This document shows positions 11,631-40,105 of a stretch of 64,000 nucleotides of DNA, piece after piece. A model generated the notes under the pieces. It did not search any database. It saw only the letters and a program-made list of their open reading frames with translations, and was not told the DNA's origin. The DNA is taken from positions 3,724,501-3,788,500 of the forward strand of contig JAGTPG010000002.1 of assembly GCA_018195615.1 (NCBI GenBank), given 5' to 3'. This stretch comes from Streptomyces tuirus. Lineage in GTDB: Bacteria > Actinomycetota > Actinomycetes > Streptomycetales > Streptomycetaceae. Numbering within the stretch: the first letter of the stretch is position 1; each line of letters opens with the position of its first letter. Position numbers and translations under genes: made by a program.

Positions 11631-11635
11631 CCGGC

Positions 11636-12934
11636 TCACCCGGCGGAGCCGAACGCCGCGTTCATCTTCTTCGCGGCGTCCTCCGAGGCGGCGGGCACGT
11701 CCTTCTTGCCGCTGATGATCTCCTGGAACATCGTCGGCAGGACGAGGGAGGAGTCGATCTGGGCCCAGGCGGGCGAGGCGGGGACGAACTTGGTGCCGGC
11801 CGAGAGGGTCCGCACGAAGGGCTTCACGAACGGCTCCTTCGCGGCGACCTGCTGCCGTACGTCCGTGAAGGTCGGCAGGAAGCCCATCGCGTCGAAGAGC
11901 TCGGTCTGCGTCTTCTTCGAGGCGAGCTGTTCCATCAGATCGACGGCGAGCGTGCGGTGGGACGTGCTCTTCAGGACGCCGATGTTGTTGCCGCCCGCGA
12001 AGGCGGGGGCGATCGAGCCGGACTTCACACCCGGCAGCGGGACCACGGCGTACTTGCCCTTGACCTTCCCGGCCTCGACGGCGGTGTGGCTGAAGTCGCC
12101 GCCGATCGCCATCCCGGCCTGGCCGGCGGCGAAGGCGGAGATCGTGTCGTTGCCGCCCATGCCCGCGCACTTGGCGGCAGGACAGTTGTCGTCACCGAAG
12201 AGTGAGGTGTACTCCTTGATGCCCTTCTGCGCCTCGGGGCTGTCGATGCCGGCGGCGTACGACCCGCCCTTGCCGCTCGCGAGTTCCCCGCCGTTGGCCC
12301 AGACGAACGGCATCGCGCCGTAGGTGTAGGCGCCGCCGACCACCAGCCCGTAGAGGCCGGGCTTCGCGGCGCGTATCTTCCGGGCAGTGGAGGCCAGTTC
12401 GGCCATGGTCTTCGGAGGCTGAAGGCCCAACTCCTCGAAGACGTCGGTGCGGTAGTAGAGGGCGCGGACGCCGACGTAGAACGGGGCGCCGTAGATCTTG
12501 CCGTCCACCGTCACGGACTGCCTGGCCGTCGGGTCGGTGTCCTTCGCCTCGTTCCAGTCCCCGAACTCCCCGGTCACGTCGAGGAGTCCGCCGTCCTTCA
12601 CATAGCCGGCCGTGTCGGTGTTGCCGTACTCCATCACGTCGGGCGCGGAGTCGGGGTCGTTGAAGGCGGCCTTGACGCGCTGGGCGCGGGTGTCGATCGG
12701 GATGTACTCGACCTTGACCTTGGTGCCCTGGTGCGCCTTCTCGAAGTCGGCGACGACCGAGTCGACGACCTTCTCCTTGGGGGTGTTGCCGACCTCCTGG
12801 AACAGCCAGACGCGCAGCGTGCCGGTCTTCTCGTCCTTGTCGGAGGAGGAGTTCGAGGAGGTCTGGGGCGCGCAGGCGGTGGCCAGGAGGGCGGCGAGCG
12901 CGGTGAGCCCGGCAAAACGGACGGACAGCTTCAT
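11636..12934 (-). CDS. Sugar-binding lipoprotein of ABC importer
   Basis: A 432-residue extracellular solute-binding protein (family 1). It begins MKLSVRFAGLTALAALLATAC, a lipoprotein signal with the acylated Cys at residue 21, followed by a Ser/Asn-rich linker. The body has SBP_bac_1 features such as GTLRVWLFQEV, PDVMEYGNTDTAGYV and GVRALYYRTDVFEELGL. The ATG at 12934 has GGAGGAG about eight bases upstream; an open frame that extends higher is untranslated leader. It heads the operon with two permeases and the GH20 hexosaminidase, so chitobiose or another GlcNAc oligosaccharide is the likely ligand (inference). Confidence 0.92.
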   Translation of the reverse strand: MKLSVRFAGLTALAALLATACAPQTSSNSSSDKDEKTGTLRVWLFQEVGNTPKEKVVDSVVADFEKAHQGTKVKVEYIPIDTRAQRVKAAFNDPDSAPDVMEYGNTDTAGYVKDGGLLDVTGEFGDWNEAKDTDPTARQSVTVDGKIYGAPFYVGVRALYYRTDVFEELGLQPPKTMAELASTARKIRAAKPGLYGLVVGGAYTYGAMPFVWANGGELASGKGGSYAAGIDSPEAQKGIKEYTSLFGDDNCPAAKCAGMGGNDTISAFAAGQAGMAIGGDFSHTAVEAGKVKGKYAVVPLPGVKSGSIAPAFAGGNNIGVLKSTSHRTLAVDLMEQLASKKTQTELFDAMGFLPTFTDVRQQVAAKEPFVKPFVRTLSAGTKFVPASPAWAQIDSSLVLPTMFQEIISGKKDVPAASEDAAKKMNAAFGSAG

Positions 12935-12954
12935 GGAGTGCTCCTCCGAGGGAG

Positions 12955-12964
12955 TGTTGCAACA
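12955..12964. promoter_or_regulatory. Perfect palindrome TGTTGCAACA in the sugar-importer leader
   Basis: A 10-bp perfect palindrome, 20 bases upstream of the binding-protein start, with a second short palindrome TGTGCACA at 12984-12991. Such dyads are common LacI/ROK-type operators; no regulator gene is adjacent, so the function is inference. Confidence 0.35.
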
Positions 12965-13000
12965 TGCGCAATGAAGGTTTCGCTGTGCACAACACATCGG

Positions 13001-13030
13001 AGGCTAGGGACTGCATGAACACGCCCACAA
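13001..13030 (-). promoter_or_regulatory. Predicted promoter of the sugar-importer/hexosaminidase operon
   Basis: On the minus strand TTGTGG (13025-13030) and TAGCCT (13001-13006) are 18 bases apart, resembling -35 and -10 boxes of the principal sigma factor. The start would fall near 12994, about 60 bases before the first gene. Confidence 0.45.
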
Positions 13031-13045
13031 GAGGTCTCAACCACT
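13030..13045. promoter_or_regulatory. DasR-responsive-element-like site
   Basis: AGAGGTCTCAACCACT matches 13 of 16 positions of the known DasR operator consensus A(C/G)TGGTCTAGACCA(C/G)T. It touches the predicted -35 box, where a repressor would block RNA polymerase. DasR is the GntR-family regulator of GlcNAc and chitin use in Streptomyces; the downstream operon encodes an importer and a hexosaminidase, so the context agrees. Confidence 0.6.
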
Positions 13046-13091
13046 CTGTGACCGGCAGACGCATCCTGCGCAACGTCCGAACAGCACAAAA

Positions 13092-13124
13092 GCCTCCAGG
13101 GCGCGCAAAACGCACCCTGGAGGC
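13092..13124. terminator. Hairpin terminator after DUF3039 gene
   Basis: GCCTCCAGGG and CCCTGGAGGC form a perfect 10-bp stem around a 13-base loop, 22 bases past the DUF3039 stop. Confidence 0.7.
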
Positions 13125-13145
13125 CTCACGCCGTACGGGCGGGCG

Positions 13146-13427
13146 TTACTTGTCGCCCTTGCCCTTGTCGTCGTCGCCGGAGCCCATGGACTCGTAGATC
13201 TCCTTGCACATGGGACACACGGGGTACTTCTTCGGATCGCGGCCCGGCACCCAGACCTTGCCGCACAGCGCCACGACGGGGGTGCCGTCGAGGGCGCTCG
13301 CCATGATCTTGTCCTTCTGGACGTAATGGGCAAAGCGCTCGTGGTCACCGTCACCGTGGGAGGTCTGCGGCGTCGGCTCTACGAGGGTCCCCGTACCAGT
13401 CCCGCGCTCGGGCTCGAGAGTGCTCAT
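13146..13427 (-). CDS. DUF3039 domain protein
   Basis: A 93-residue protein of an actinobacterial family of unknown function. It starts MSTLEPERGTGTGTLVEPTPQ and holds a small putative zinc site: VALCGKVWVPG and YPVCPMCKEIYESMG, with a conserved HERFAHYV before it. The tail is Asp/Lys-rich. The ATG at 13427 is preferred to an upstream one because family members begin at this point. It is 29 bases downstream of the YqgE gene on the same strand, so the two may be co-transcribed. No biochemical role is known to me. Confidence 0.85.
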   Translation of the reverse strand: MSTLEPERGTGTGTLVEPTPQTSHGDGDHERFAHYVQKDKIMASALDGTPVVALCGKVWVPGRDPKKYPVCPMCKEIYESMGSGDDDKGKGDK

Positions 13428-13456
13428 AGGCACCAGGGTACTGAAGGTCACAGACA

Positions 13457-14038
13457 TCAGTTGAGCGAAGGGTCGTCCGGGTAGGTGGCCACCATCGCCA
13501 GCTCGCTGCGCTGGCGGCGCAGCACCTCGCGCCAGAGCCGCTCCGGGGACGGCGAGGAGACGTCACCGGGCTCCGACTCGACCACGTACCACGCGCCGTC
13601 CACCAGCTCGTCCTCCAGCTGGCCCGGGCCCCACCCGGCGTACCCGGCGAAGATCCGCAGGGAGCCGAGAGCGGAGGCCAGCAGTTCCGGCGGGGCCTCC
13701 AGATCGACCAGACCGATCGCACCGTGCACCCGCCGCCAGCCCAGCGGAGCGGCCTCCCCGGACGCGCCACCGGGGACGACGGCGACACCGAGGGCCGAGT
13801 CCAGCGACACCGGACCGCCCTGGAACACGACGCCGGGCTCACCGGCCAGGTCCCCCCAGCCCTCCAGGATGTCGTCCACGTCCACCGGGGTCGGACGGTT
13901 GAGGACGACACCGAGGGAGCCCTCCTCGTCGTGGTCGAGGAGCAGCACCACCGCGTGGTCGAAGTTCGGGTCCGCCAGGGCGGGCGTGGCCACGAGCAAC
14001 CGCCCTGTGAGCGAGGACACCTCGGTCATGCCAGACAT
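13457..14038 (-). CDS. YqgE/AlgH family protein (UPF0301)
   Basis: A 193-residue member of the UPF0301 family. Recognisable blocks are TGRLLVATPALADPNFDHAVVLL, GSLGVVLNRPTP, VFQGGPVSLDSALGV and IFAGYAGWGPGQLEDEL. Function is not established; the fold is a small alpha/beta protein found across bacteria. It is divergent from murA, with 242 bases between the starts. Two ATGs (MSGM, MTEV) lie at the start and either could be used. Confidence 0.92.
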   Translation of the reverse strand: MSGMTEVSSLTGRLLVATPALADPNFDHAVVLLLDHDEEGSLGVVLNRPTPVDVDDILEGWGDLAGEPGVVFQGGPVSLDSALGVAVVPGGASGEAAPLGWRRVHGAIGLVDLEAPPELLASALGSLRIFAGYAGWGPGQLEDELVDGAWYVVESEPGDVSSPSPERLWREVLRRQRSELAMVATYPDDPSLN

Positions 14039-14208
14039 GATCCCGCATCTTCCCGCCGCGTGGGGAGCAATGCGGGCGACCGGAGTGCACGCAGCTCAGG
14101 GCGCACCGATGCGTCCCACGCGCACGAACGTGACCGTGACCCCATGTGCCCGGCACGAAACGGTTCGTGTTGTGACAGAGCTATGACGTGGCTGGGTCTG
14201 ACTCAGGC

Positions 14209-14238
14209 TTACAGAAGGGGGGTGGGGGCGATTACCCT
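14209..14238 (+). promoter_or_regulatory. Possible murA promoter
   Basis: TTACAG (14209-14214) and TACCCT (14233-14238) lie 18 bases apart, 43 bases before the murA ATG. The match to the principal-sigma consensus is only fair. Confidence 0.3.
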
Positions 14239-14280
14239 TTCCCTTCTGGCCCCTGCCCGACTCCACGGAACGCGAGATTC

Positions 14281-15621
14281 ATGACCGTCAACGACGATGT
14301 CCTGCTTGTCCACGGCGGAACCCCGCTGGAGGGCGAGATCCGTGTCCGCGGTGCGAAGAACCTCGTACCGAAGGCCATGGTCGCAGCGCTGCTGGGCAGC
14401 GCTCCGAGCCGGCTGCGCAATGTTCCGGACATCCGTGATGTACGGGTCGTACGGGGTCTGCTGCAGCTTCACGGTGTGACGGTCCGTCCGGGTGACGAGC
14501 CCGGCGAACTCGTGATGGATCCGACGCGCGTGGAGAGCGCGAACGTCGCTGACATCGATGCCCACGCGGGTTCCAGCCGCATCCCGATCCTGTTCTGCGG
14601 CCCGCTGCTGCACCGCCTGGGCCACGCGTTCATCCCCGGCCTCGGCGGCTGCGACATCGGCGGCCGGCCCATCGACTTCCACTTCGACGTGCTGCGGCAG
14701 TTCGGCGCGAAGATCGAGAAGCGGGCGGACGGGCAGTACCTGGAGGCACCGCAGCGGCTGCGCGGCACGAAGATCCGGCTGCCGTACCCGTCCGTGGGCG
14801 CGACCGAGCAGGTACTGCTGACGGCCGTCCTCGCAGAGGGCGTCACGGAGCTGTCCAACGCGGCCGTCGAGCCGGAGATCGAGGACCTGATCTGCGTCCT
14901 GCAGAAGATGGGCGCGATCATCGCGATGGACACCGACCGGACCATCCGCATCACCGGTGTGGACAAACTCGGCGGCTACACCCACCGCGCCCTGTCGGAC
15001 CGCCTGGAGGCCGCGTCCTGGGCGTCGGCGGCGCTGGCGACCGAGGGCAACATCTACGTCCGGGGCGCGCAGCAGCGCTCGATGATGACGTTCCTCAACA
15101 CCTACCGGAAGGTGGGCGGGGCCTTCGAGATCGACGACGAGGGCATCCGCTTCTGGCACCCCGGCGGGCAGCTGAAGTCCATCGCGCTGGAGACGGACGT
15201 CCACCCCGGCTTCCAGACCGACTGGCAGCAGCCGCTGGTGGTGGCCCTCACTCAGGCCACGGGCCTGTCCATCATCCACGAGACGGTCTACGAGTCCCGC
15301 CTCGGCTTCACCTCGGCGCTGAACCAGATGGGCGCACACATCCAGCTCTACCGCGAGTGCCTGGGCGGCTCCGACTGCCGCTTCGGCCAGCGCAACTTCC
15401 TCCACTCGGCGGTCGTCTCCGGCCCCACCAAGCTCCAGGGCGCCGACCTGGTCATCCCCGACCTCCGCGGCGGCTTCTCGTACCTCATCGCCGCCCTGGC
15501 GGCCCAGGGCACGTCCCGGGTCCACGGCATCGGCCTGATCAACCGGGGCTACGAGAACTTCATGGAAAAGCTGGTGGAGCTGGGCGCGAAGGTCGAACTG
15601 CCGGGGAAGGCGCTCGGCTGA
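14281..15621 (+). CDS. murA: UDP-N-acetylglucosamine 1-carboxyvinyltransferase
   Basis: MurA transfers enolpyruvate from PEP to UDP-GlcNAc, the first committed step of peptidoglycan synthesis. The 446-residue protein shows RVRGAKNLVPKAMVAALL (substrate-binding Lys-Asn), the active-site loop LGGCDIGGRPIDFH with the catalytic Cys near residue 123, the fosfomycin-sensitive residue, and the closing NRGYENFMEKLVELGAKVEL. The start at ATG 14281 (MTVNDDVLLVHGG) is preferred to upstream in-frame starts because the extension is G-rich non-family sequence containing the probable promoter. The last 60 bases are repeated downstream (see repeat at 15686). Confidence 0.96.
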   Translation: MTVNDDVLLVHGGTPLEGEIRVRGAKNLVPKAMVAALLGSAPSRLRNVPDIRDVRVVRGLLQLHGVTVRPGDEPGELVMDPTRVESANVADIDAHAGSSRIPILFCGPLLHRLGHAFIPGLGGCDIGGRPIDFHFDVLRQFGAKIEKRADGQYLEAPQRLRGTKIRLPYPSVGATEQVLLTAVLAEGVTELSNAAVEPEIEDLICVLQKMGAIIAMDTDRTIRITGVDKLGGYTHRALSDRLEAASWASAALATEGNIYVRGAQQRSMMTFLNTYRKVGGAFEIDDEGIRFWHPGGQLKSIALETDVHPGFQTDWQQPLVVALTQATGLSIIHETVYESRLGFTSALNQMGAHIQLYRECLGGSDCRFGQRNFLHSAVVSGPTKLQGADLVIPDLRGGFSYLIAALAAQGTSRVHGIGLINRGYENFMEKLVELGAKVELPGKALG

Positions 15622-15685
15622 TCGCGGCCCTGCGGCAACGCCCGCCCGGCTGGGGGTCCGGGGGTCGGCCCCGGGAAAGCACAGC

Positions 15686-15745
15686 ATGGAAAAGCTGGTG
15701 GAGCTGGGCGCGAAGGTCGAACTGCCGGGCAAAGCGCTCGGCTAG
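15686..15745 (+). repeat. Second copy of the murA 3' end
   Basis: These 60 bases repeat the last 60 of murA (15562-15621) after a 64-base spacer, coding the same peptide MEKLVELGAKVELPGKALG. Differences are confined to two silent codon changes (GGG to GGC, AAG to AAA) and the stop (TGA to TAG). It has no initiation site of its own and is not expected to be translated. Confidence 0.95.
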
Positions 15746-15756
15746 CAGTCCGGTAC

Positions 15757-15800
15757 GCCGATGGGGCGGTCACCCTGACTCGGGTGACCGCCCCATCGGC
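15757..15800. terminator. Strong bidirectional terminator between murA and hup
   Basis: A perfect 19-bp inverted repeat (GCCGATGGGGCGGTCACCC and its complement) with a 6-base loop lies between the convergent murA and hup genes. It sits just beyond the duplicated murA tail. Confidence 0.9.
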
Positions 15801-15810
15801 GTTCGGTGCA

Positions 15811-15894
15811 GCGCCCCAAGGGGCGCGCGTCCTGTTCGATATGCGGCTCCGTCGCGCGGGCGCGACAAGCCACAACGGGCCCGCAGCCGCCGAC
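15811..15894. repeat. Dispersed Streptomyces intergenic repeat
   Basis: The stretch contains gcgccccaaggggcgc, then tgcggctccgtcgcgcggg and gcgacaagccacaacgggcc. I recognise this word order from repeats scattered through Streptomyces intergenic regions. A related element is at 23159-23218. Confidence 0.55.
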
Positions 15895-15924
15895 GGCGCT
15901 GACCCGTAGCGGCGCCTACGCGCC

Positions 15925-16206
15925 TTACTTGCCCTTGGCCGCTTCCTTGAGCTTCGAGCCCGCGGAGACCTTCACGCTGTAGCCGGCCGGGATCTGGATG
16001 GGCTCGCCGGTCTGCGGGTTGCGGGCGGTACGAGCGGCACGGTGGGTGCGCTCGAAGGTCAGGAAGCCGGGGATGGTGACCTTCTCGTCGCCCTTGGAGA
16101 CGATGTCGCCGACGACGTCGGCGAACGCGGCCAGCACGGCGTCGGCGTCCTTGCGGGTCACCTCGGCGCGGTCGGCCAGCGCGGCCACCAGCTCACTGCG
16201 GTTCAT
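15925..16206 (-). CDS. hup: DNA-binding protein HU
   Basis: A 93-residue HU histone-like protein that binds and bends DNA as a dimer, helping to compact the nucleoid. Family hallmarks are MNRSELVAALADRAEVTRKDAD, the GFLTFERTHRAARTARNPQTG beta-arm start and the IQIPAGYSVKVSAGSKLKEA end. It is the short HU form without the Lys/Ala-rich C-terminal tail of the second Streptomyces HU. The ATG at 16206 follows a GGGAG site. Confidence 0.96.
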   Translation of the reverse strand: MNRSELVAALADRAEVTRKDADAVLAAFADVVGDIVSKGDEKVTIPGFLTFERTHRAARTARNPQTGEPIQIPAGYSVKVSAGSKLKEAAKGK

Positions 16207-16548
16207 GTTCTTACTCCCGTGTTCATCTTGCCGTTGAGGCGTCAGATCGAAGCCGATGCTGCCAGGGTCCTCACTGAGTCCCCGGACCCGGGTCCGTCGT
16301 CAGACCCTCGCGCCCAGGGAGGCATCCTGCCTCTACCTGCGGCGGGAAAGCCAATCCGGCACCCGCAGGAGTCGTGAGAACACCCTTGGGGAGTCACACG
16401 AAAAGAGGGCCTGAGCCTGGCCGACACGATAGGGCTCCGCTGGTGACAGGAGTCCTGCGACGCGCCGGTCTCCGGGCCGCGTGGGGATCCTCACAGTCCG
16501 GGAGCCACCGCCCCCGGACCCCCTGCTTCGGCCTGGACGGCCGAGTCC
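16207..16548. other. Intergenic region upstream of hup
   Basis: About 340 bases hold no gene. They should contain the hup promoter, but no convincing -35/-10 pair was seen. A small hairpin (GTCCGGG/CCCGGAC, 16496-16519) lies about 30 bases past the malic enzyme stop and could be its terminator. Confidence 0.6.
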
Positions 16549-17982
16549 TCAGACGCCGGACGGACTGATCGCCGCCGCCCCGACCGCCTTCGCGGCCTCG
16601 CGCACGGCCCCGGCGACAGCACCCGCGACCTTGTCGTTGAAGACGCTCGGGATGATGTAGTTCGGGTTCAGCTCGTCCTCGGTCACCACGTCCGCGAGGG
16701 CGGTCGCGGCGGCCAGCATCATCTCGGTGTTGACCGTACGCGACTGGGCGTCCAGCAGACCGCGGAAGACACCCGGGAAGACCAGCACGTTGTTGATCTG
16801 GTTCGGGAAGTCGGAGCGGCCGGTGGCCACAACGGCCGCGGTCTGACGGGCGATTGCCGGGTCGACCTCCGGGTCCGGGTTCGCAAGCGCGAACACGATC
16901 GCACCGTCGGCCATGGCGGCCACGTCGTCGCCGTCGAGGACGTTGGGAGCCGAGACGCCGATGAAGACGTCGGCGCCGCGCACGGCCTCCTTGAGCGTGC
17001 CGGTGAGGCCCTCGGGGTTGGTGTTGTCAGCGATCCAGCGCAGCGCCGAGTCGGGCGCGGCGTCCACCAGGTCCTCGCGGCCGGCGTGCACGACGCCGTG
17101 GATGTCGGCGACGACGGCGTTCTTCACGCCCGCGGCGAGCAGCAGTTTGAGGATGGCCGTACCGGCGGCGCCGGCGCCGGACATGACGACCCGGATGTTC
17201 TCGATCGCCTTGCCCGTGACGCGAAGTGCGTTGGTGAGCGCGGCCAGGACGACGATCGCGGTGCCGTGCTGGTCGTCGTGGAAGACGGGGATGTCGAGGG
17301 CCTCGCGCAGCCGGGCCTCGATCTCGAAGCAGCGCGGGGCGGAGATGTCCTCGAGGTTGATGCCGGCGAAGCCGGGGGCGATGGCCTTGACGATCTCGAC
17401 GATGGCGTCGGTGTCCTGGGTGTCGAGGCAGATCGGCCAGGCGTCGATGCCGGCGAACCGCTTGAAGAGGGCCGCCTTGCCCTCCATGACGGGCAGCGCG
17501 GCCTTCGGGCCGATGTTGCCCAGGCCCAGCACGGCGGAGCCGTCCGTCACGACCGCAACGGAGTTGCGCTTGATGGTGAGGCGGCGGGCGTCCTCGGGGT
17601 TCTCGGCGATCGCCATGCAGACGCGGGCGACGCCCGGCGTGTAGACCATGGACAGGTCGTCACGGTTGCGGATGGGATGCTTCGACGCCATCTCGATCTT
17701 GCCGCCGAGGTGCATGAGGAAGGTCCGGTCGGAGACCTTGCCCAGGGTGACGCCCTCGATGCCGCGGAGTTCCTCGACGATCTCGTCCGCGTGCGCGGTC
17801 GACGAGGCCGCGATGGTGACGTCGATGCGGAGCTTCTCGTGACCGGACGCGGTGACGTCGAGGCCGGTCACCGAGCCTCCGGAGGACTCCACGGCGGTGG
17901 TGAGCTGCGAGACGGCGGTTCCGCTCGCGGGCACCTCCAGCCGGACCGTCATCGAGTAGGAGACGCTGGGCGCCGTTGCCAT
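16549..17982 (-). CDS. NAD-dependent malic enzyme
   Basis: A 477-residue malate dehydrogenase (decarboxylating) making pyruvate, CO2 and NADH from malate. The N-terminus (residues about 8-85) is an ACT-like regulatory domain, then malic-enzyme motifs SMVYTPGVARVC, VVTDGSAVLGLGNIGP, NLEDISAPRCFEIE, PVFHDDQHGTAIVVLAALTNAL and a Rossmann GAGAAGTAIL. GTG/ATG choice: ATG 17982 has AGAGGAAG about nine bases upstream. A structured RNA ending in a strong terminator lies 120-255 bases upstream on the same strand and may control or precede it. Confidence 0.93.
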   Translation of the reverse strand: MATAPSVSYSMTVRLEVPASGTAVSQLTTAVESSGGSVTGLDVTASGHEKLRIDVTIAASSTAHADEIVEELRGIEGVTLGKVSDRTFLMHLGGKIEMASKHPIRNRDDLSMVYTPGVARVCMAIAENPEDARRLTIKRNSVAVVTDGSAVLGLGNIGPKAALPVMEGKAALFKRFAGIDAWPICLDTQDTDAIVEIVKAIAPGFAGINLEDISAPRCFEIEARLREALDIPVFHDDQHGTAIVVLAALTNALRVTGKAIENIRVVMSGAGAAGTAILKLLLAAGVKNAVVADIHGVVHAGREDLVDAAPDSALRWIADNTNPEGLTGTLKEAVRGADVFIGVSAPNVLDGDDVAAMADGAIVFALANPDPEVDPAIARQTAAVVATGRSDFPNQINNVLVFPGVFRGLLDAQSRTVNTEMMLAAATALADVVTEDELNPNYIIPSVFNDKVAGAVAGAVREAAKAVGAAAISPSGV

Positions 17983-18070
17983 GGCCGACTTCCTCTGCTT
18001 TCACCTGACGCTGAGTTGTGCCGTCCGATCGTCGCACCTACCGCTGGGTAGCGGGTAGCCACCCTCGATT

Positions 18071-18087
18071 GCGAACGTTTTGTTCGC
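18071..18087. promoter_or_regulatory. Dyad GCGAAC-N5-GTTCGC before malic enzyme
   Basis: A 6-bp perfect inverted repeat with a 5-base spacer lies between the upstream terminator and the malic enzyme start, about 90 bases before the ATG. It could be a repressor site; no partner regulator is known. Confidence 0.35.
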
Positions 18088-18100
18088 GGAACAGGCCAGC

Positions 18101-18134
18101 AAAAAGAGACCCACGTCACTTGGACGTGGGTCTC
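18101..18134 (-). terminator. Intrinsic terminator ending the structured RNA
   Basis: On the minus strand GAGACCCACGTC and GACGTGGGTCTC form a perfect 12-bp stem with a 5-base loop followed by TTTTT, a textbook Rho-independent terminator, rare in such G+C-rich DNA. It lies 119 bases before the malic enzyme start. Confidence 0.92.
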
Positions 18135-18237
18135 CTCAGAGAAGAAGTGGCACCGACCCGCCATGCTCGCCTCGCGGCAAGTGGTCGCTCGTAGCGACGA
18201 AGGTTGGGCCCGGGGGCTTGGATCGGGCCGGTGCCAC
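18101..18237 (-). ncRNA. Candidate structured small RNA or riboswitch leader
   Basis: Minus-strand RNA of about 137 bases. Its first 14 bases (GTGGCACCGGCCCG, 18237-18224) pair fully with CGGGTCGGTGCCAC (18160-18147), one G-U included. Inside are two hairpins: GTCGCT-ACG-AGCGAC and CTTGCC-GCGA-GGCGAG, the latter with a GNRA tetraloop. The terminator at 18101-18134 follows directly. A TAGCCT box at 18242-18247 sits the right distance for transcription to start at the helix's first base. It could be an independent sRNA or an attenuating leader for the malic enzyme gene. I cannot assign it to a named RNA family. Confidence 0.65.
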
Positions 18238-18336
18238 ATCCAGGCTAACAAACGGATCCCGTAAGGCCATTCCCGTACCGGGAGTTCATTTCGCCGGCAA
18301 CTGGGTATCGGGGCACGGCCCGTCAGGGAGGCCTGA

Positions 18337-20622
18337 TCAGTCCCGCAGCAGGTCCGGGACTCCCGCCGCGTCCGGCTCGTCCCGCTCCGCCGAGACGACC
18401 GTGAGCTGCTGGGTGGCCCGGGTCAGTGCGACGTAGAGCACACGCAGGCCGGCCGGGGACTCGTCGGCGATCTCCGCCGGGGAGACCACGACCGTCGCGT
18501 CGTACTCCAGGCCCTTGGCCTCCAGGCTGCCGAGCGCCACCACCCGGTCGCCGAGACCGGCGAGCCAGCGGCGGGCCTCCTCGCGGCGCTGCATGGCGAC
18601 GACCACGCCGACCGTGCCGTCGACGCGCTCCAGCAGCCGGGCCGCCTCGTCGCGGACGGTTTCGGCCAAGGTGTCGCCCACGACCGTGAAGCGGGGCTCG
18701 ACGCCGGTGGAGCGGACCGCCTTCGGTGAGACGGAGCCGGGCATCGCGAGGGCGAGCACCTTCGAGGCGAGCTCGGCGATCTCGGCCGGGTTGCGGTAGT
18801 TCACGGTGAGCTCGAAGCGGCGGCGCGGGCGGGTGCCGAGGGCCTCGTCGCGGGCCTGGGCGGCCTCGTCCGGGTCGGACCAGGAGGACTGGGCCGGGTC
18901 GCCGACGACCGTCCAGGTGGCGTGCCGGCCGCGGCGGCCGACCATGCGCCACTGCATCGGGGTGAGGTCCTGCGCCTCGTCGACGATGACGTGGGCGTAC
19001 TCGACGCGCTCCTGGGCGAGACGCTCGGCCCGCTCGCGCTGGGACTCCTCGCGCACGGGCATCAGCTCCTCCAGGCCGGTGAGCTGGTCGAGCGGGTCGA
19101 GTTCGCGCTTCCTCCGGGGGCGCGCGGGGGCGCCGAGGATCGCCTGGAGTTCGTCGAGCATGGCGACGTCGTGCACGGAGTTGCCGTCGCGCCTGAGGGA
19201 GCGGGCGACCTTGCGGACCTCGCCGGGGTTGAGGATCCGCCGGGCCCAGCGGCCGAGGCGCCGCTCGTCGGCCATGGCGGCCAGGACGGCGGCCGGGGTC
19301 AGCTCGGGCCACCAGGCGTCGAGGAAGGCGATGAAGGAGTCCTCGCCGGTGATGTCCTCGTCGAAGGAGGAGCGCAGCTCGGCGGCGAGCTCCGGGTCGG
19401 TGTGCCGGCCGGCCGCGCCGGACCGCTCCCACAGGGCGTCCAGGAGCAGCTTGCGGGCGCGGGGGCGCAGCAGGTTCACGGGGGCGGTGCCGCCGAGGGC
19501 GGTGCGGCGGATGCCCGCGAGTTCCTCGGCCTCCAGCTCCAGGCGGCGGCCGAAGGCGACCACGCGCAGCCGGGCCGGTGAATCGTTCAGCTCCAGGGCT
19601 CCGCGCGCGGCCTTGCGCAGCACCTTGAGCATGCGGGAGGAGCCCTTGGCGCGGGCCACGGACGGGGAGTCGTAGAGCATGGCCTCGGCTCCCTCGACCA
19701 GTGAGCCGATGGCGCGGATGGCGACCTGGCCCTCCTCGCCGAGGGAGGGCAGCACGCCCTCGGTGTAGGAGACGAGCAGCGGGGTCGGCGAGACGATCAG
19801 GATGCCGCCCGCGTACCGGCGCCGGTCCTGGTAGAGGAGGTAGGCCGCGCGGTGCAGCGCGACGGCGGTCTTGCCGGTGCCGGGGCCGCCCTCGACGTAG
19901 GTGACGGAGGCGGCGGGGGCGCGGATGACCAGGTCCTGCTCGGCCTGGATGGACGCGACGATGTCGCGCATGGTGTGGCTGCGGGCCTGGCCGAGCGCGG
20001 CCATCAGGGCGCCGTCGCCGATCACGGACAGTTCGTGACCGTCGAGGAAGGCCTTCAGCTCGGGGCGCATCAGGTCGTCCTCGACGCCGAGCACCCTGCG
20101 TCCCTTGGAGCGGATGACCCGGCGTCGTACGACCCGGCCGGGGTCGACGGGCGTGGAGCGGTAGAAGGGGGCGGCGGCCGGGGCGCGCCAGTCGATGACC
20201 AGCGGGGCGTAGTCCTGGTCGAGGACGCCGATGCGGCCGATGTGCAGGGTTTCGGCGATGTCGGCGGTGCTGTCGTCCCGGACCGCGCCCTCGGCGGGCT
20301 CGACGGCGGTGTACGCGCCGTCGGGTCCCTTCTTGCCGTCCTTGCCGAGCAGCAGGTCGATACGGCCGAAGAGGAAGTCCTCGAACTCGTTGTTGAGCCG
20401 GTTGAGGTGGATGCCCGCACGGAAGACCTGGGCGTCCCGCTCGGCGAGCGCGCCGGGCGTGCCGACCTGGCCGCGCTGGGCCGCGTCGTTCATGAGGAAC
20501 TCCGCCTCGTGGATCTTCTCCTCGAGGCGCCGGTACACCCGGTCCAGGTGTTCCTGTTCGACGCCGATCTCTCGGCCTCTGAGGGAGTCGAGCGCGGTTT
20601 CCTGTTGCGCCTGAGCGGCCAC
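18337..20622 (-). CDS. HelD-type RNA polymerase-associated helicase (UvrD/Rep-like)
   Basis: A 761-residue superfamily 1 ATPase. Walker A is in YVEGGPGTGKTAVALHRAAYLLY, Walker B in HVIVDEAQDLTPMQW, motif IV-VI in ELTVNYRNPAEIAELA and VLYVALTRATQQL. The N-terminal coiled-coil (about residues 10-70, QEHLDRVYRRLEEKIHEAEF) and the IGRIGVLDQDYAPLVIDWRAPAAAPFY block mark it as HelD rather than UvrD. HelD proteins bind RNA polymerase and release stalled complexes; some actinobacterial ones protect against rifampicin. I looked for the rifampicin-associated inverted repeat upstream and did not find it. GTG start at 20622 with AGAAGGGGG before it. Confidence 0.9.
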   Translation of the reverse strand: MAAQAQQETALDSLRGREIGVEQEHLDRVYRRLEEKIHEAEFLMNDAAQRGQVGTPGALAERDAQVFRAGIHLNRLNNEFEDFLFGRIDLLLGKDGKKGPDGAYTAVEPAEGAVRDDSTADIAETLHIGRIGVLDQDYAPLVIDWRAPAAAPFYRSTPVDPGRVVRRRVIRSKGRRVLGVEDDLMRPELKAFLDGHELSVIGDGALMAALGQARSHTMRDIVASIQAEQDLVIRAPAASVTYVEGGPGTGKTAVALHRAAYLLYQDRRRYAGGILIVSPTPLLVSYTEGVLPSLGEEGQVAIRAIGSLVEGAEAMLYDSPSVARAKGSSRMLKVLRKAARGALELNDSPARLRVVAFGRRLELEAEELAGIRRTALGGTAPVNLLRPRARKLLLDALWERSGAAGRHTDPELAAELRSSFDEDITGEDSFIAFLDAWWPELTPAAVLAAMADERRLGRWARRILNPGEVRKVARSLRRDGNSVHDVAMLDELQAILGAPARPRRKRELDPLDQLTGLEELMPVREESQRERAERLAQERVEYAHVIVDEAQDLTPMQWRMVGRRGRHATWTVVGDPAQSSWSDPDEAAQARDEALGTRPRRRFELTVNYRNPAEIAELASKVLALAMPGSVSPKAVRSTGVEPRFTVVGDTLAETVRDEAARLLERVDGTVGVVVAMQRREEARRWLAGLGDRVVALGSLEAKGLEYDATVVVSPAEIADESPAGLRVLYVALTRATQQLTVVSAERDEPDAAGVPDLLRD

Positions 20623-20682
20623 CGGGCCCCCTTCTGACGTGCTGGGCAGCCGTCTACCGTACGCGAAGGGGACCCGGAAAGG

Positions 20683-21516
20683 CTACGCGTCGACCTCGAC
20701 GAGCCGCTTGCCGTCGAAGGTCACGACCTCGAAGTGGTCGATCTCGTTCGGTTCGAACGCGGCGCCGCCCTGGACGTAGAGGGGCTCCTTGGCCTGGTCG
20801 GTCTTGGCGTCCGGGATGCCATAGCCCCAGTTCGGGACGGACCAGGAGGACAGGGTCTCGCGCTCGCCGTTCTTTCCGACCGCGACGAGGGCGCACTTCT
20901 GCGGGCCCTTGAGGTTCTTGAGCTCCAGGATCGTCCCGGTGCCCCAGTCCTTCTTCTGGACGGCGACCGTCGCGGTGACCTTGCTGGTCGGGTCGGTGGC
21001 GGTGATCTTGTCGGAGATGCCGTCGAAGGCCTCCTTGGCGGGGCTCGACGCGAGCGGGCGGTTCTCCGCGCCGCCGCCGTCACCGCCGCCGTTCGTCGCG
21101 ACCGCGACGAAGGGGCCGCCGATGATCAGCGCGCCGGCCGCGGCCACCATGTAGAAGCTGCGGCGGCGCTTCTGGGCGCGGCGTTCGGCGACCTCGTCGA
21201 CCAGCTTCTCCACCAGGCGCGGCCGGGGCTTGGCCGACAGCGACTCGCCGATCGCGGGGGTGCTGCCGGAGCCGGGCAGGTCGGCGAGGGCGGCGAGCAT
21301 CGGCTCCATGCCGGCCAGCTCGTCGAGCTGCTGGGCGCACCATTCGCAGGTCGCGAGGTGGGCTTCGAAAGCGGTTGCTTCGGCGTCGTCGAGGATGCCG
21401 AGGGCGTAGGCACCGACGGTTTCGTGCTCGTTCGGCACCGGAGACTCCTGCATGGGACCAGACATACCCATGCCTCCCGTACCGAACCCTTGGTTACCCC
21501 CGTAAACACTCATCAC
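20683..21516 (-). CDS. rsuA: Anti-sigma factor RsuA
   Basis: A 277-residue membrane anti-sigma factor. The N-terminal half has the zinc-binding anti-sigma motif H-x3-C-x2-C in AHLATCEWCAQQLDEL, then a Gly/Pro linker, a cluster RRAQKRRR and a single membrane helix (SFYMVAAAGALIIGGPFVAVA). The outside half resembles the RskA domain. It starts four bases after the sigma factor stop, the usual sigma/anti-sigma pair arrangement. Neighbour order (malic enzyme, helicase, this pair) matches the S. coelicolor sigU-rsuA locus, which is why I give the names. Confidence 0.88.
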   Translation of the reverse strand: MMSVYGGNQGFGTGGMGMSGPMQESPVPNEHETVGAYALGILDDAEATAFEAHLATCEWCAQQLDELAGMEPMLAALADLPGSGSTPAIGESLSAKPRPRLVEKLVDEVAERRAQKRRRSFYMVAAAGALIIGGPFVAVATNGGGDGGGAENRPLASSPAKEAFDGISDKITATDPTSKVTATVAVQKKDWGTGTILELKNLKGPQKCALVAVGKNGERETLSSWSVPNWGYGIPDAKTDQAKEPLYVQGGAAFEPNEIDHFEVVTFDGKRLVEVDA

Positions 21517-21520
21517 GCCG

Positions 21521-22087
21521 TCACCCCCGCTCCTCCAGTGCCAGCTTCATCGAACGCAGGGCGTAGAACACCCTTGAGCGGACCGTTCCGCTGGGTATGC
21601 CCAGGGTCTCGGCCGCCTCATTGACGGTACGCCCCTTGAAGTACGTCTCGACGAGCACCTCCCGGTGAGCTGGGGTCAGGTCGTCGAGTGCGTCCGAGAG
21701 AGTCATCAGCCACAGCGCCTTGTCGATCTCGTCCTCCGCGGGGATGACCTCCAGCGGCGACGGGTCGACCTCCTGCGGCCGGGCCTGCCGGCTGCGGTGG
21801 CCGTCGATGACGATGCGCCGGGCGACCGTCACCAGCCAGGGGCGTACCGATCCGGTCGCCCGATTGAGCTGACCGGCGTTCTTCCAGGCACGGATGAGCG
21901 TCTCCTGCACGACGTCCTCGGCGCGCTGCCGGTCTCCGGCGACCAGGCGCAGGACGTATGCCAGCAGGGGTCCGGCGTGTTCGCGATAGAGCGCACGCAT
22001 CAGCTCCTCGTCGGGTTCCGAGGGCTGGGACATGCGATGTCGGGCCCTCGGTGCACGTTCATTGGCCACGACGGAATCCTTGCGCAC
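21521..22087 (-). CDS. sigU: ECF RNA polymerase sigma factor SigU
   Basis: A group 4 sigma factor of about 188 residues. Region 2 is ELMRALYREHAGPLLAYVLRLV...AEDVVQETLIRAWKN, region 4 is LTPAHREVLVETYFKGRTVNEAAETLGIPSGTVRSRVFYALRSMK. I choose GTG 22087 because GGAGGT lies four bases before it; ATG 22132 has no ribosome site and ATG 22033 would also keep region 2. In S. coelicolor SigU blocks sporulation when freed from RsuA. An ECF-type promoter upstream (22193-22221) suggests it activates its own operon. Confidence 0.88.
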   Translation of the reverse strand: MRKDSVVANERAPRARHRMSQPSEPDEELMRALYREHAGPLLAYVLRLVAGDRQRAEDVVQETLIRAWKNAGQLNRATGSVRPWLVTVARRIVIDGHRSRQARPQEVDPSPLEVIPAEDEIDKALWLMTLSDALDDLTPAHREVLVETYFKGRTVNEAAETLGIPSGTVRSRVFYALRSMKLALEERG

Positions 22088-22192
22088 GCCCACCTCCGGT
22101 GTCCGGGGGTTCCCCAGTCGGTCGCTCCCCATGCCGTACGGAAGCGAGCGGTTGGGCGTTCAAAGAGACGTGACAGATTTCTTCGAGGTGAC

Positions 22193-22221
22193 GTGACGAG
22201 CGGGACATGAGGTTACATTCC
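22193..22221 (-). promoter_or_regulatory. ECF-type promoter upstream of sigU
   Basis: On the minus strand GGAATG (22216-22221) and CGTCAC (22193-22198) are 17 bases apart, close to the general ECF pattern GGAAC-N16/17-CGTC. The position, about 105 bases before the chosen start, fits autoregulation by SigU. Confidence 0.5.
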
Positions 22222-22329
22222 TACCCCGCGATCTTTACATTTCCGCCACATCGGCAAGATCAAGCCAGTCCTTCCCTACGGGTGCGTAGGTAAACGGCAT
22301 GTAATCGAAATCACTTCGACAGTGGGGTC

Positions 22330-22977
22330 TCAGAAGTCGCATTTAGGACACGGGAATTGGATGCACGGACCACCCAATTCCGTTTCACGCGCGGAGAGTG
22401 CCGCGCGGCGGCGGTGCCGGGCGACGCGTTCGCGGTTTCCGCAGACCTCACTGGAGCACCAGCGCCGTCGGCGTCCCCGGGAGGTGTCGAGGTACACGAT
22501 GGGGCAGTTGTCGCCCTCGCACTGGCGCAGGGCCGCGCGGGCCACGGGGTCGGTGAGCAGGTCGACGGCGTCCCGGGCGACGGCCGCGAGCAGGGCGGCG
22601 CAGTCGGGAGGGCCGTCCAACTGCCGTACGAGCTCACCGTCTCGACCGCGGACGGCACGCGGGGCCGGGGGCGCGGTACGGGCGAGGTCGTTGACGCGCG
22701 CGAGCGCGAAGTCGTAGGCCCGGGCCGCGGGCCCCGACCAGCCGCGCACCAACCGGTCCGTCTGACCTCGCAGTTCGCGGAAGGCGGCCGGCCAGGTGGC
22801 GTCGACGTGGGTCAGCGCGGTGCCCGGCGGGACGAGCCCGGAGCCGGTGATCCAGGCGCGCAGCACGTCCACGGAGTCGAGCCGCTCCTCCGGGTGCGTG
22901 GTGGAGAGCAGATCCAGGCAGATCCGCCCGGCATCGAACCGCAGCTCGTACGGGGCCGTGGCCGTACCCAGTGCCAT
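22330..22977 (-). CDS. ABATE/CGNR zinc-finger protein
   Basis: A 215-residue putative transcription regulator. The N-terminus (ELRFDAGRICLDLLSTTHPEERL) is the ABATE ligand-binding-like domain. The C-terminus is the zinc finger CEGDNCPIVYLDTSRG...WCSSEVCGNRERVARHR, which carries the eponymous C-G-N-R motif. These proteins are thought to bind DNA, but targets are unknown. An extra Cys-rich end (CIQFPCPKC) follows the finger. The ATG at 22977 begins a family-like sequence. Confidence 0.9.
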   Translation of the reverse strand: MALGTATAPYELRFDAGRICLDLLSTTHPEERLDSVDVLRAWITGSGLVPPGTALTHVDATWPAAFRELRGQTDRLVRGWSGPAARAYDFALARVNDLARTAPPAPRAVRGRDGELVRQLDGPPDCAALLAAVARDAVDLLTDPVARAALRQCEGDNCPIVYLDTSRGRRRRWCSSEVCGNRERVARHRRRAALSARETELGGPCIQFPCPKCDF

Positions 22978-23158
22978 GTGCCTGTCACCGCCTAGGGGTT
23001 CCCCTCAGACGCGAGAGGTTCGGTGAGATGCCAGTGAGAGGGCTGGGAAACCGTTCCCTCTTACAGTGCCTGCCCACCGCGACGCCCGAAACCCCTCGCA
23101 CGGGCAGGACTGCCACGCGCACCGGGAATTCGGCCTCGGCTGACGAACGCCACCGGTG

Positions 23159-23218
23159 CAGCACCCTCAGGGGCGCGGGGAACTGCGCGAGAACAGCCCC
23201 ACCGGCCCGCAGTTCCCC
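23159..23218. repeat. Dispersed Streptomyces repeat with 11-bp hairpin
   Basis: The stretch caggggcgcggggaactgcg is a very common Streptomyces intergenic word. Here GGGGAACTGCG (23177-23187) and CGCAGTTCCCC (23208-23218) form a perfect inverted repeat, so it could also act as a terminator for the HemD-regulator gene, about 100 bases beyond its stop. The surrounding 22978-23316 holds no gene. Confidence 0.6.
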
Positions 23219-23316
23219 GCGGCCCGAGCACCACGCGGCGCACACCCCGACCCGGATCGACTCGGGCGGCCCCTGCGCGTCGCCGTGGCGGTTTCTCGCC
23301 CAACTCGCGGGGCGCC

Positions 23317-24467
23317 TCACGCGTCCGCGTACTTCGACTCCGCTGCCGGGTCCAGGGCCAGACGGTAGCCCCGCTTGACCACCGTCTGGATCAGCTTCGG
23401 GTACCGAGGGCGGTGCGGAGGCGGGCCATGGCCGTCTCCACCGCGTGTTCGTCACGTCCCGCGCCGGGCAGCGCGCGCAGCAGTTCGGCACGGGCGACGA
23501 CCCAGCCGGGGCGGCGGGCGAGGGCCCGGAGCAGGGACATGCCGGCGGGCGGTACGGGCTTGAGGGCGTCGTCGACCAGAACCGCGTGGCCACGGATCTC
23601 CACCCGGTGCCCGGCGATCGGCAGCGAGCGCGCCCGGGTGGGCAGTTCCTGGCAGAGGAGCTGGACGAGGGGGCCGAGCCGGAATCGCTCGGGCTGAATC
23701 GTGTCGATGCCGTGGGACTGGAGCGGCAGCGCGGTGACCGGGCCGACGCAGGCCGGCAGTACGTCGTGGCTCAGGGCGGCCAGGACGTCGGGGAGCAGCC
23801 CCCGCTTCTCGGCCCGGGACAGCAGGGATGCCGCGGCCGGGGCGCTGGTGAACGTCAGCGCGTCCAGGCCCCGGGAGACCGTCGCGTCGAGGAGGCGGTC
23901 CACCGGGCCGATGTCCTCCGGCGGCATCCACCGGTAGACGGGCACGCCGACGACCTCGGCCCCGCCCTCCCGCAGCGCCTCCACGAACCCGGGCAGCGGC
24001 TCGCCGTGCAGCTGGACCGCGATCCGCAGACCGTCGACGCCCTCCTCCAGCAGCCGGTCCAGCACCTCCGCCATGGACTCCGACGACGGCGACCACTCCT
24101 CCGTCAGCCCGGCGGCCCGCACCGCGCCCTTGACCTTGGGCCCACGCGCCATGATCCGTACGCCGCCCAGCCGCGACAGCAGGTCGTCGCCGAGCCCCCA
24201 GCCGTCGGCGGCCTCGACCCAGCCCCGGAAGCCGATCGCGGTCGTGGCGATCACGATGTCCGGCACCTGCTGGATGATCTCCTTCGTCGCGGCCAGCAGT
24301 TCACTGTCGTCGGCGAGCGGCACGATCCGCAGGGCAGGGGCGTGCAGGACGGCGGCACCACGTCGCTGCAGCAGCGCCCCGAGCTCATCGGCCCGGCGCG
24401 CGGCCGTGACACCCACGGTGAAGCCGGCCAGGGGCCCGTGGTCCGGTCGCTGTTCTTTCTCGTACAT
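23317..24467 (-). CDS. Uroporphyrinogen-III synthase fused to winged-helix regulator domain (one apparent frameshift)
   Basis: About 383 residues after restoring one base in the G run 23399-23401. The first 255 residues are HemD-like (GFTVGVTAARRADELGALLQRRGA, VIATTAIGFRGW, LTFTSAPAAASLL), which would close the tetrapyrrole ring on the way to siroheme, heme and cobalamin. The rest is an OmpR-type DNA-binding winged helix (GMSLLRALARRPGWVVARAELL, AVETAMARLRTALG, then LIQTVVKRGYRLALDP after the break). Such fusions sit beside nitrate/nitrite genes in actinomycetes, and narK is next. It may sense tetrapyrrole or act as regulator of nitrogen genes (inference). Confidence 0.87.
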
Positions 24468-24518
24468 GGCTCTCGTCCCGCACTCGAGTCGTCGTACTTC
24501 ATGGGTACGGCGTACCTA

Positions 24519-24567
24519 CATGCCGATCGAGCCTGTCAACGGCTCGTGACAGGCCCGGATCGGCATG
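24519..24567. terminator. Terminator after narK
   Basis: CATGCCGATC..GCCTGTCA pairs with TGACAGGC..GATCGGCATG, an 18-bp interrupted stem with an 8-base loop, 18 bases past the narK stop. Confidence 0.8.
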
Positions 24568-24584
24568 ATGTCGTCGGTGTTACG

Positions 24585-25970
24585 TCACACCTCGGCGTAG
24601 CTGAGCTGCGGCTTCTCCTCCGAGGTCGATGCGGTGACGGGTACCCGGGGAGTCGTACGGCGAAGGTATACGGCCCAGGTGACCACGAAGCACACCGCGT
24701 AGAAGGCGAGGAAGGCGACGAACGCGCCGGTGCCGGAACCGTAGGAGAGGAAGGACTGGCGGAAGGCCAGGTTGATGCCGACGCCGCCGAGCGCGCCCAC
24801 CGCGCCGATGAGCCCCATGGAGGCACCGGAGAGCCGGCGCCCGTAGGCCGCGGCCTCCTCGCCCTGCAGTCCCTTGGCGAGGGCCTTGTTCTGGAAGATG
24901 CCCGGGATCATCTTGAACGTCGAGCCGTTGCCGAGCCCGCTGAGCACGAACAGCACCACGAACGCCGCCGTGAACAGCGCCAGCGACTTCTCCATGGAGG
25001 CACCGATCAGGATCGCCGTCGCGACGCCCATGCCGACGTAGTTCCACAGGCTGATCCGCGCGCCGCCGTACCGGTCCGCGAGCCAGCCGCCGAGGGGCCG
25101 GATGAGGGAGCCGAGCAGCGGGCCGAGGAAGGTGACGTACGCGGCCTGCAGCGGCGTACGGCCGAACTGGTTCTGGAGCACCTGGCCGAAGGCGAAGCTG
25201 TAGCCGATGAAGGAGCCGAAGGTGCCGATGTAGAGGAGGGACATGATCCACGTGTGGGCGTCCCGCGCGGCGTCCTTGGCGGCGCCGGTGTCGTTCTTCA
25301 CGTTCTCCAGGTTGTCCATGAAGAGCGCGGCCATGACGGCGGCGACGACGATCAGCGGGATGTAGACCCCGAGCAGCACGCGCGGCCCGCCACCGGCGCC
25401 GATGATCGCGAGCGCGGCCAGCTGGATCACCGGTACGCCGATGTTGCCGCCGCCCGCGTTCAGGCCGAGGGCCCAGCCCTTCTTCCGCAGCGGGAAGAAC
25501 GCGTTGATGTTGGTCATGGAGGAGGCGAAGTTGCCACCGCCGATGCCTGCGAGCAGGCCGACGAGCAGGAAGGTGGAGAAGGAGGTGCCCGGCTCCATCA
25601 CGGCGAACGCGGCGACGGTCGGGACCAGGAGCAGACCGGCCGAGATGATCGTCCAGTTCCGGCCGCCGAAGATCGCGACAGCGAAGGTGTAGGGGACGCG
25701 GACGACGGCGCCGACGAGCGTGACCATCGAGGTCAGCATGAACTTGTCGGCCGGCGTCAGGCCGTACTCCGGGCCCATGAAGAGCACCAGCACGGACCAC
25801 AGGGTCCAGATCGAGAAGCCGATGTGCTCGGACAGGACGGAGAAGAAGAGGTTCCGGCGGGCGATCTTCTCTCCGGTCTCCTTCCAGAACGTCTCGTTCT
25901 CCGGATCCCAGTGCTGGATCCAGCGTCCGCCCTTGCTCGGGGGTGCGGGTGCCGTGCCAGGGCCTGTCAT
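24585..25970 (-). CDS. narK: Nitrate/nitrite transporter NarK
   Basis: A 461-residue major-facilitator protein of the nitrate/nitrite porter family with about 12 membrane helices. The nitrate signature is seen twice: GGGNFASSMTNINAFFP with GWALGLNAGGGNIGV, and GLGNGSTFKMIPGIFQNKAL. The N-terminus WIQHWDPENETFWKETG is typical of actinomycete NarK. It should import nitrate and/or export nitrite at the membrane. Same strand as the HemD-regulator gene but a strong terminator separates them. Confidence 0.94.
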   Translation of the reverse strand: MTGPGTAPAPPSKGGRWIQHWDPENETFWKETGEKIARRNLFFSVLSEHIGFSIWTLWSVLVLFMGPEYGLTPADKFMLTSMVTLVGAVVRVPYTFAVAIFGGRNWTIISAGLLLVPTVAAFAVMEPGTSFSTFLLVGLLAGIGGGNFASSMTNINAFFPLRKKGWALGLNAGGGNIGVPVIQLAALAIIGAGGGPRVLLGVYIPLIVVAAVMAALFMDNLENVKNDTGAAKDAARDAHTWIMSLLYIGTFGSFIGYSFAFGQVLQNQFGRTPLQAAYVTFLGPLLGSLIRPLGGWLADRYGGARISLWNYVGMGVATAILIGASMEKSLALFTAAFVVLFVLSGLGNGSTFKMIPGIFQNKALAKGLQGEEAAAYGRRLSGASMGLIGAVGALGGVGINLAFRQSFLSYGSGTGAFVAFLAFYAVCFVVTWAVYLRRTTPRVPVTASTSEEKPQLSYAEV

Positions 25971-26123
25971 GACGCCTCCACTGTGCTCCGGGGCCGGGTC
26001 GTACTTCGAGTGACTGACCCGAAGGTAGGGAGGACGCGTTTCGTGGCTGTGCCAGCGAGTGACCGCGAAGGAACTTTACTCTCACCCCGCGCTCGGGCGG
26101 GATGAGAGGTTCGGTGCCGTCTG

Positions 26124-39992: not shown

Positions 39993-40105
39993 ATGTTGTG
40001 TTTTCAATCCCCCGCGAGAGGGGCTCCGCACCCGCTGTGAGGTGCAGGTGCCATCGTACGTGACCAACGCCCGACGATGCCACCGTATTCCCCCGTGCCG
40101 GGGCG

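Follow-up and report, generated by a model that had tools for sequence, protein, structure and literature searches.

The small RNA scr2952 of Streptomyces coelicolor reportedly goes back to Vockenhuber et al. in 2011. It is listed as one of 11 expression-confirmed sRNAs of this species, conserved in more than half of the Streptomyces tested, and is stated to be in Rfam (PMC8388888, sRNA passages); SCO2952, where its name places it, is a HelD protein of 744 amino acids (PMC8655204, abridged text). Streptomyces sRNAs with a known function are few, according to the same passages on sRNAs (PMC8388888), which also describe the actinobacterial 6C RNA, with two stem-loops each holding at least six Cs. 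Ms1/scr3559 and 6S RNA are further conserved structured noncoding RNAs of bacteria; RIP-seq found scr3559 and scr0792 associated with the transcription machinery of S. coelicolor, and the main text of that report does not contain "2952" (PMC11077062). Promoters of the form GGAAT-N18-19-GTT are given for SigR (PMC9205884) and GGAAYR-N17-GTT for SigH of M. tuberculosis (PMC4803200), the latter equalling an 18-base spacer in the counting that we use for GGAA[TC] motifs; within the consulted portions of these papers, the targets are tallied as protein genes or operons. An sRNA screen in C. glutamicum described SigH-type promoters at 44 start sites (PMC4046766, partial text), so that SigH-driven sRNAs are, as a general idea, already published.

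Here we analyse an RNA locus in a 64,000-nucleotide stretch of the Streptomyces tuirus genome (the window). It looks like a structured RNA family undescribed so far that recurs across many actinobacteria. Like scr2952 it is a conserved RNA beside a HelD-like gene, and from name and gene context, by which the two were compared, the RNA of S. coelicolor is probably this known transcript; the description of scr2952, in the portions consulted, differs in that it holds no SigR, no structure and no relatives outside Streptomyces. An Rfam search, which an earlier sequence-only reading of this DNA had proposed, matched no Rfam 15 family: by cmscan, neither the RNA of the window nor the copies covered by 29 locus scans, types 1 and 2 (see below) included, reached a gathering threshold, the tRNA and tmRNA matches in these scans lying away from the RNA, and permissive thresholds returned only chance-level matches over window positions 10000-26000. 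Given that scr2952 is stated to be in Rfam, this empty scan counts either against the identity or against that statement. The RNA resembles 6C RNA in being actinobacterial and C-rich, but it carries a single C-rich junction strand, and cmscan found no 6C match in the window or the 29 locus scans. It shares with Ms1/scr3559 and 6S RNA the character of a conserved structured RNA, and in Streptomyces it adjoins the gene of an RNA polymerase motor, but it forms a three-way junction and lacks an Rfam match. Its promoter agrees with the SigR and SigH forms, whereas the consulted portions of the regulon papers do not name this RNA. A literature search over a limited set of article texts returned no report of a class-wide family, a SigR/SigH link, a second subtype or plasmid copies.

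The RNA locus in the Streptomyces tuirus window

The minus strand from 18237 to 18101 encodes a compact predicted RNA of ~137 nt (type 1), equipped with its own promoter and intrinsic terminator, between a HelD/HelR-like gene and a malic enzyme gene, all three on the same strand (Table 1). Its fold reaches -78.6 kcal/mol (z = -7.2), with 0 of 200 dinucleotide shuffles as good; the plus strand of the same interval gives z = -5.8. Read from 5' to 3', the RNA consists of the helix P1, a short P2, the strand J2/3 (CCCCGGGCCCAACCUUC), the hairpin P3, two bases, the hairpin P4, a linker and the terminator, which ends in five Us. Much of this architecture had been recognized from the letters by the sequence-only reading. 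The 14-bp closing helix and both inner hairpins are present in the computed fold, one of them with the GNRA loop GCGA, and the judgement that so strong a fold is unlikely by chance agrees with the shuffles. The terminator hairpin and its five Us are also as described, but the fold gives it 15 pairs instead of 12. Elsewhere in the window, strong inverted repeats at 13092-13124 and 15751-15806, with sub-threshold and probably chance Rfam matches, are possibly transcription terminators.

Table 1. Predicted elements of the RNA locus, its neighbours and related loci (positions refer to the window unless a locus is named)
Feature	Location	Strand	Evidence or remark
Whole predicted sRNA transcript, 137 nt	18101..18237	-	Fold z -7.2, genus-wide presence, covariation
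P1 closing helix, 14 bp, 5' strand	18224..18237	-	Fold; double-sided changes class-wide
P1, 3' strand	18147..18160	-	Fold; double-sided changes class-wide
P2 5' strand (CCA), partner 18161-18163	18219..18221	-	Fold, class-wide alignment
J2/3 C-rich strand CCCCGGGCCCAACCUUC, proposed functional site	18199..18215	-	Conservation; mostly unpaired in consensus
P3 hairpin, UACGA-like loop	18184..18198	-	GC to CG covariation; longer arm instead in type 2
P4 hairpin, GNGA tetraloop (here GCGA)	18166..18181	-	Fold, Streptomycetaceae cores, class-wide alignment
Intrinsic terminator hairpin and U5	18101..18137	-	Sequence, fold; relatives carry a different hairpin sequence there
-35 element GGGAAT, SigR/SigH-type promoter	18269..18274	-	Window match; conserved in flanks
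-10 element GTT, same promoter, 19-nt spacer	18247..18249	-	Overlaps TAGCCT 18247-18242 (TANNNT)
Upstream neighbour, HelD/HelR-like RNA polymerase recycling motor gene	18337..20622	-	ORF; NCBIfam matches all below curated cut-offs
Downstream neighbour, malic enzyme gene	16549..17982	-	ORF; NCBIfam subfamily match below cut-off
Gene of ~200-aa neighbour protein	L308:1631-2278	-	Homologues in alignment A8
Type-2 loci	L332, L333, L335, L377-L390, L392-L396, L397-L454		Mostly with SigR-type promoter and terminator
Plasmid copies between mihF and Lsr2-family gene	L372:3630-4737, L373:3641-4680, L374:3637-4695		Rhodococcus

Distribution, covariation and a second subtype

The type-1 RNA was found with a 181-base query in 293 of 295 sampled Streptomyces genomes, and 95 of the 150 loci examined carry it, 69 distinct cores being present among the 95. 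Covariance model R1 matched 60/61 Streptomycetaceae genomes (16/17 genera) and, at E <= 0.01, 163 of 296 genomes of the class (56/114 genera), 28 of the 163 being Streptomyces; 133 of the 296 gave no type-1 match with R1 under its strict filters. Family searches with model R2 matched 34/35 genomes in f18, 21/22 in f19, 48/61 in f26 and 59/121 in f4 (18/31 genera). All 14 genomes matched in a sample of 198 from the phylum lie inside the same class, so we see no evidence for the RNA outside it. Similarity of malic enzymes, which is partly informative, places family f3 near Arthrobacter (85%) and f45 near Isoptericola (83%), and f4 is tied to Rhodococcus/Gordonia solely via plasmid matches of one of its copies. 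Matches to this copy occur in 50 plasmid records, 41 from Rhodococcus and 9 from Gordonia, some plasmids having several, and no annotated feature lies under the match among the 15 matches listed, for which the gene table is incomplete. Of five plasmid loci inspected, three, from Rhodococcus, have the RNA between genes of nucleoid proteins, mihF and an Lsr2-family gene, and two have it elsewhere. A one-pattern search of viral contigs gave 0 matches, as did blastn of phage records with one Streptomyces and one f4 copy. Locus L212 bears two copies in tandem (2787-2878 and 2969-3060), each with its own GGAA[TC]-N18-GTT. Some loci entered the counts twice (e.g., L196/L255, L201/L308, L207/L256 and L223/L239), and L333 and L408 are one place.

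The first 14 bases of J2/3 (CCCCGGGCCCAACC) are invariant in 69/69 Streptomycetaceae cores, as is P4, and the CCCCGG core of J2/3 is kept class-wide and in type 2; P3, the P4 tetraloop and the junction geometry are largely frozen both in these cores and in the class-wide alignment. The helices covary. The sequence-only reading had staked its proposal in advance on compensatory changes across relatives, and these are abundant, as expected of an independent structured sRNA gene predicted from sequence: the Streptomycetaceae cores show 23 double-change cells versus 5.9 in shuffles, and 49 diverse sequences of the class show double changes in 24/32 pairs, with 206 cells versus 67 shuffled and 17-34 when the pairing is slid. 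With 88 distinct sequences we counted 325 such cells versus 95 shuffled and 37-69 for slid pairings. Further pair types exceed the shuffles class-wide (66 vs 50.7) and are no higher than shuffles in the Streptomycetaceae cores (12 vs 11.4). Alignments A3, A4 and A5 were fitted to models seeded from Streptomyces, which biases them towards the stated pairs, although the slid controls clearly fail. P1 has changes on both sides in 14/14 pairs class-wide. RNAalifold recovered P1, P3 and the inner part of P4 from the set of 49 sequences, P2 not being recovered, and J2/3 is mostly unpaired in the class consensus.

A two-pair extension, P2b, joins the bases immediately 5' of CCCCGG to those immediately 3' of P4. 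It is complementary in 54/58 copies with four Cs (shuffled mean 25.9, maximum 38), and was not found in 21/32 copies with five Cs at the offsets tried. A GCC-loop-GGC hairpin inside J2/3 was also considered as a feature of the class and dropped because pair 28-39 is not standard in 24/49 rows. Single-sequence folds of six relatives are uneven (z from -5.5 to -0.5). Locus L195, at z -0.5, folds no more stably than its shuffles, and in L239, L333 and L388 the structure of lowest energy lacks the proposed inner arms as drawn.

Model R2 also returned matches of ~115 nt that share the C-rich strand and P4 and carry a long P3 with a conserved, GGANTWCCGTTCGGCTGGAGC-like internal loop (type 2). This P3 covaries, with 36 double-change cells versus 10.4 shuffled, further pair types not rising above shuffles (13 vs 13.7); L391, which looks like a chance match, was left out of alignments A6 and A7, and the near-duplicates L377 and L394 also of A7. 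Model R3 found type 2 in 118/199 Streptomyces genomes, with up to 7 matches per genome (G111), and in 74/394 genomes of the class (29/137 genera), among them f17 genomes (for example G362 and G382) that lacked a type-1 match in the class-wide R1 scan. The genome of the window itself has no type-2 match with R3. Several type-2 loci lie near chromosome ends.

Promoters of the RNA family

The TAGCCT box that the sequence-only reading had placed ahead of the RNA is present (18247-18242), but it shares bases with the GTT of GGGAAT-N19-GTT (18274-18247), a perfect match to the SigR form that ends 9 nt before P1 (mostly 3-10 nt in other copies). The upstream element is best read, from its sequence, as a promoter of SigR/SigH (ECF) type rather than as a housekeeping box. 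The 64-kb window contains three occurrences of the form GGGAAT-N18/19-GTT, versus 0.18 expected; the further exact occurrences, at 36957-36984 (+) and 40066-40092 (-), are possible SigR promoters of other genes.

Within ~60 bases upstream, GGAA[TC]-N17-19-GTT precedes the RNA in 80/95 Streptomycetaceae loci (shuffles 0.4) and in 20/41 copies outside the family (shuffles 0.06), with spacers of 18 or 19 and never 17 in both sets. The background is 2/3793 tiles; a single strand was scanned, and the 60-base tiles, which did not overlap, split some motifs, so that the figure is low by perhaps twofold. By family, the motif lies within 70 bases upstream in 19/19 copies of f4 (a set of 20 loci, L249 left out), 9/13 of f18 and 4/5 of f19, and in 15/29 copies of a mixed set (three Streptomycetaceae copies included). 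Among 25 further copies 20 have it, with 14/16 for f4, which brings f4 to 33/35. In type 2 it stands ahead of 19/24 copies, L391 being one of the 24, and of 56/58 best-scoring loci. The loci returned by the searches are the best-scoring ones and L332-L335 were counted in two promoter sets, so these counts are partly dependent on one another and do not represent a random sample.

By promoter sequence the RNA would fall in the SigR/SigH (ECF) regulon, most copies of f26 excepted, where the motif precedes 3/25. Many f26 copies show, in our reading, housekeeping-like -10 boxes instead. The same pattern is missing from 15/95 Streptomycetaceae copies, those of Kitasatospora included, and of two copies in one genome, L231 is without the motif and L232 has a GGGAAT -35 with no GTT at the set spacing. 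Given these exceptions in f26, in the mixed set and in Streptomycetaceae, SigR control is not universal, and predicted SigR/SigH-type promoters are widespread before members of the family. Some lineages seem, from these boxes, to run the RNA from housekeeping-like promoters, and it therefore probably also has a basal role. The TANNNT box overlapping the SigR-type element may act in some lineages; since it overlaps the GTT, HrdB could also use the Streptomyces promoter, and it is possible that other ECF factors with GGAA-type -35 boxes read it. In the f19 copies L221 and L226 the motif lies ~30 nt further upstream, and an apparent extra 5' hairpin precedes P1.

Proposed function and alternative readings

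We read the locus as a free-standing small-RNA gene of a broad actinobacterial family, probably induced by thiol stress and acting in trans, whose three-way junction would display an invariant C-rich strand; we put the probability of this reading at roughly 0.72. A predicted promoter and intrinsic terminator of its own, both in the window and in many relatives (terminators outside the window being judged by eye), mark it as an independent gene, and together with the conserved structure and the lack of a fixed neighbour across the class they favour the sRNA side of the sequence-only reading, which had wavered between an sRNA and an attenuator. In the mechanism that we propose, disulfide or electrophile stress would free SigR (or SigH) from its anti-sigma factor, and the RNA would then be made in quantity and act in trans, with J2/3 as its presumed working site. 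Held by the stack of P1, P2 and P4 and by the P3 arm, J2/3 (CCCCGG-N-Y-N-C-A) would stay accessible to a single conserved partner, for which a protein or ribonucleoprotein is the likeliest candidate. We rank such binding above antisense pairing because the whole junction with its loops, and not one seed, is frozen. The CCGG in J2/3 is self-complementary, so homodimers of the RNA could form through it, which is speculation.

If this reading is right, an RNA arm would be added to the well-studied thiol-stress response, whose SigR/SigH regulon, in the portions of the literature consulted, was counted as protein genes, and several families would have the RNA behind a SigR/SigH-type promoter, one subtype being multi-copy and some copies lying on plasmids. 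The field would also gain a conserved, genetically tractable Streptomyces sRNA, directly testable through its frozen core, its promoter and the available model genomes.

A stronger form of the proposal, which we offer tentatively and rate somewhat below even odds, is that the two subtypes make up a new structured RNA class, carried on Rhodococcus/Gordonia plasmids too, which would work across Actinomycetia as a ribonucleoprotein effector dedicated to the thiol-stress response, with an uncharacterised helical protein of ~200 residues as its possible partner. The gene of this protein adjoins the RNA in 24/25 copies of f26, 4/5 of f19 and about 20/73 of the mixed set. The protein is predicted to be all-helical (mean pLDDT 84.5). 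It matches no Pfam or NCBIfam family at 0.001, and only weak matches below cut-offs appear at E <= 10; the PDB holds no convincing sequence relative (best E 0.0046, desmoplakin), and Foldseek found no fold match (best E 0.48).

The main competitor is a classical antisense sRNA, in which J2/3 would pair with the G-rich ribosome-binding sites of many mRNAs and cut their translation in thiol stress. C-rich loops of sRNAs elsewhere act by such pairing, the CCCCGGGCCCAACC part of J2/3 is both invariant in the 69 cores and mostly unpaired, and there is no constant neighbour gene, as with trans-acting sRNAs. A seed-only sRNA, however, needs neither P3 nor the P4 tetraloop nor the junction geometry, all of which are largely frozen too, and we consider this account unlikely, though a serious one.

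The remaining alternatives tie the RNA to its surroundings. That it is processed from the 3' UTR of the helD mRNA, with no promoter of its own, might be suggested by its place on the same strand 99 nt downstream of helD, but we find this very improbable in view of the conserved promoter-like element just before the helix and of the absence of HelD beside the RNA outside the family, where tblastn against 158 loci gave no match at 1e-5 (stretches of 3-8 kb or less). A shared neighbour was rejected as a rule for the whole family: no neighbour gene is constant across the class, and the RNA adjoins many other genes, on plasmids too.

The sequence-only reading had offered, as its other option, a ligand-sensing attenuator of malic enzyme, and a cis-acting leader or riboswitch of this kind would account for the compact junction fold, for the terminator between the RNA and the malic enzyme gene, and for the position upstream on the same strand in the window and most Streptomyces loci examined. 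The RNA nevertheless points away from malic enzyme in the three Kitasatospora loci examined (L089, L090, L131) and in S. chumphonensis (L091), and 55/55 malic-enzyme loci examined outside Streptomycetaceae have no RNA match at E <= 0.01. Its own terminator, the reversed orientation and the changing neighbours, plasmid copies among them, rule out a malic-enzyme switch as the role of the family, and we give it almost no credence.

Just as implausible is a leaderless small protein gene. In the window a frame of 33 codons begins with GTG at base 1, and in 43/95 Streptomycetaceae loci the frame from this position runs for 12 codons or more, but the start codon is not conserved, the helices covary, and across the class between 37 and 43 nt separate the C-run from P4. 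There is no third-position bias, and of the codon differences from L001, counted in ungapped rows, 155 are non-synonymous and 35 synonymous; a small-protein mRNA was accordingly rejected.

Directly past the terminator, at window positions 18080-18100, lies a GAACAAAACGTTCGCAATC-like stretch that recurs in some relatives and may belong to a promoter or operator of the malic enzyme gene.
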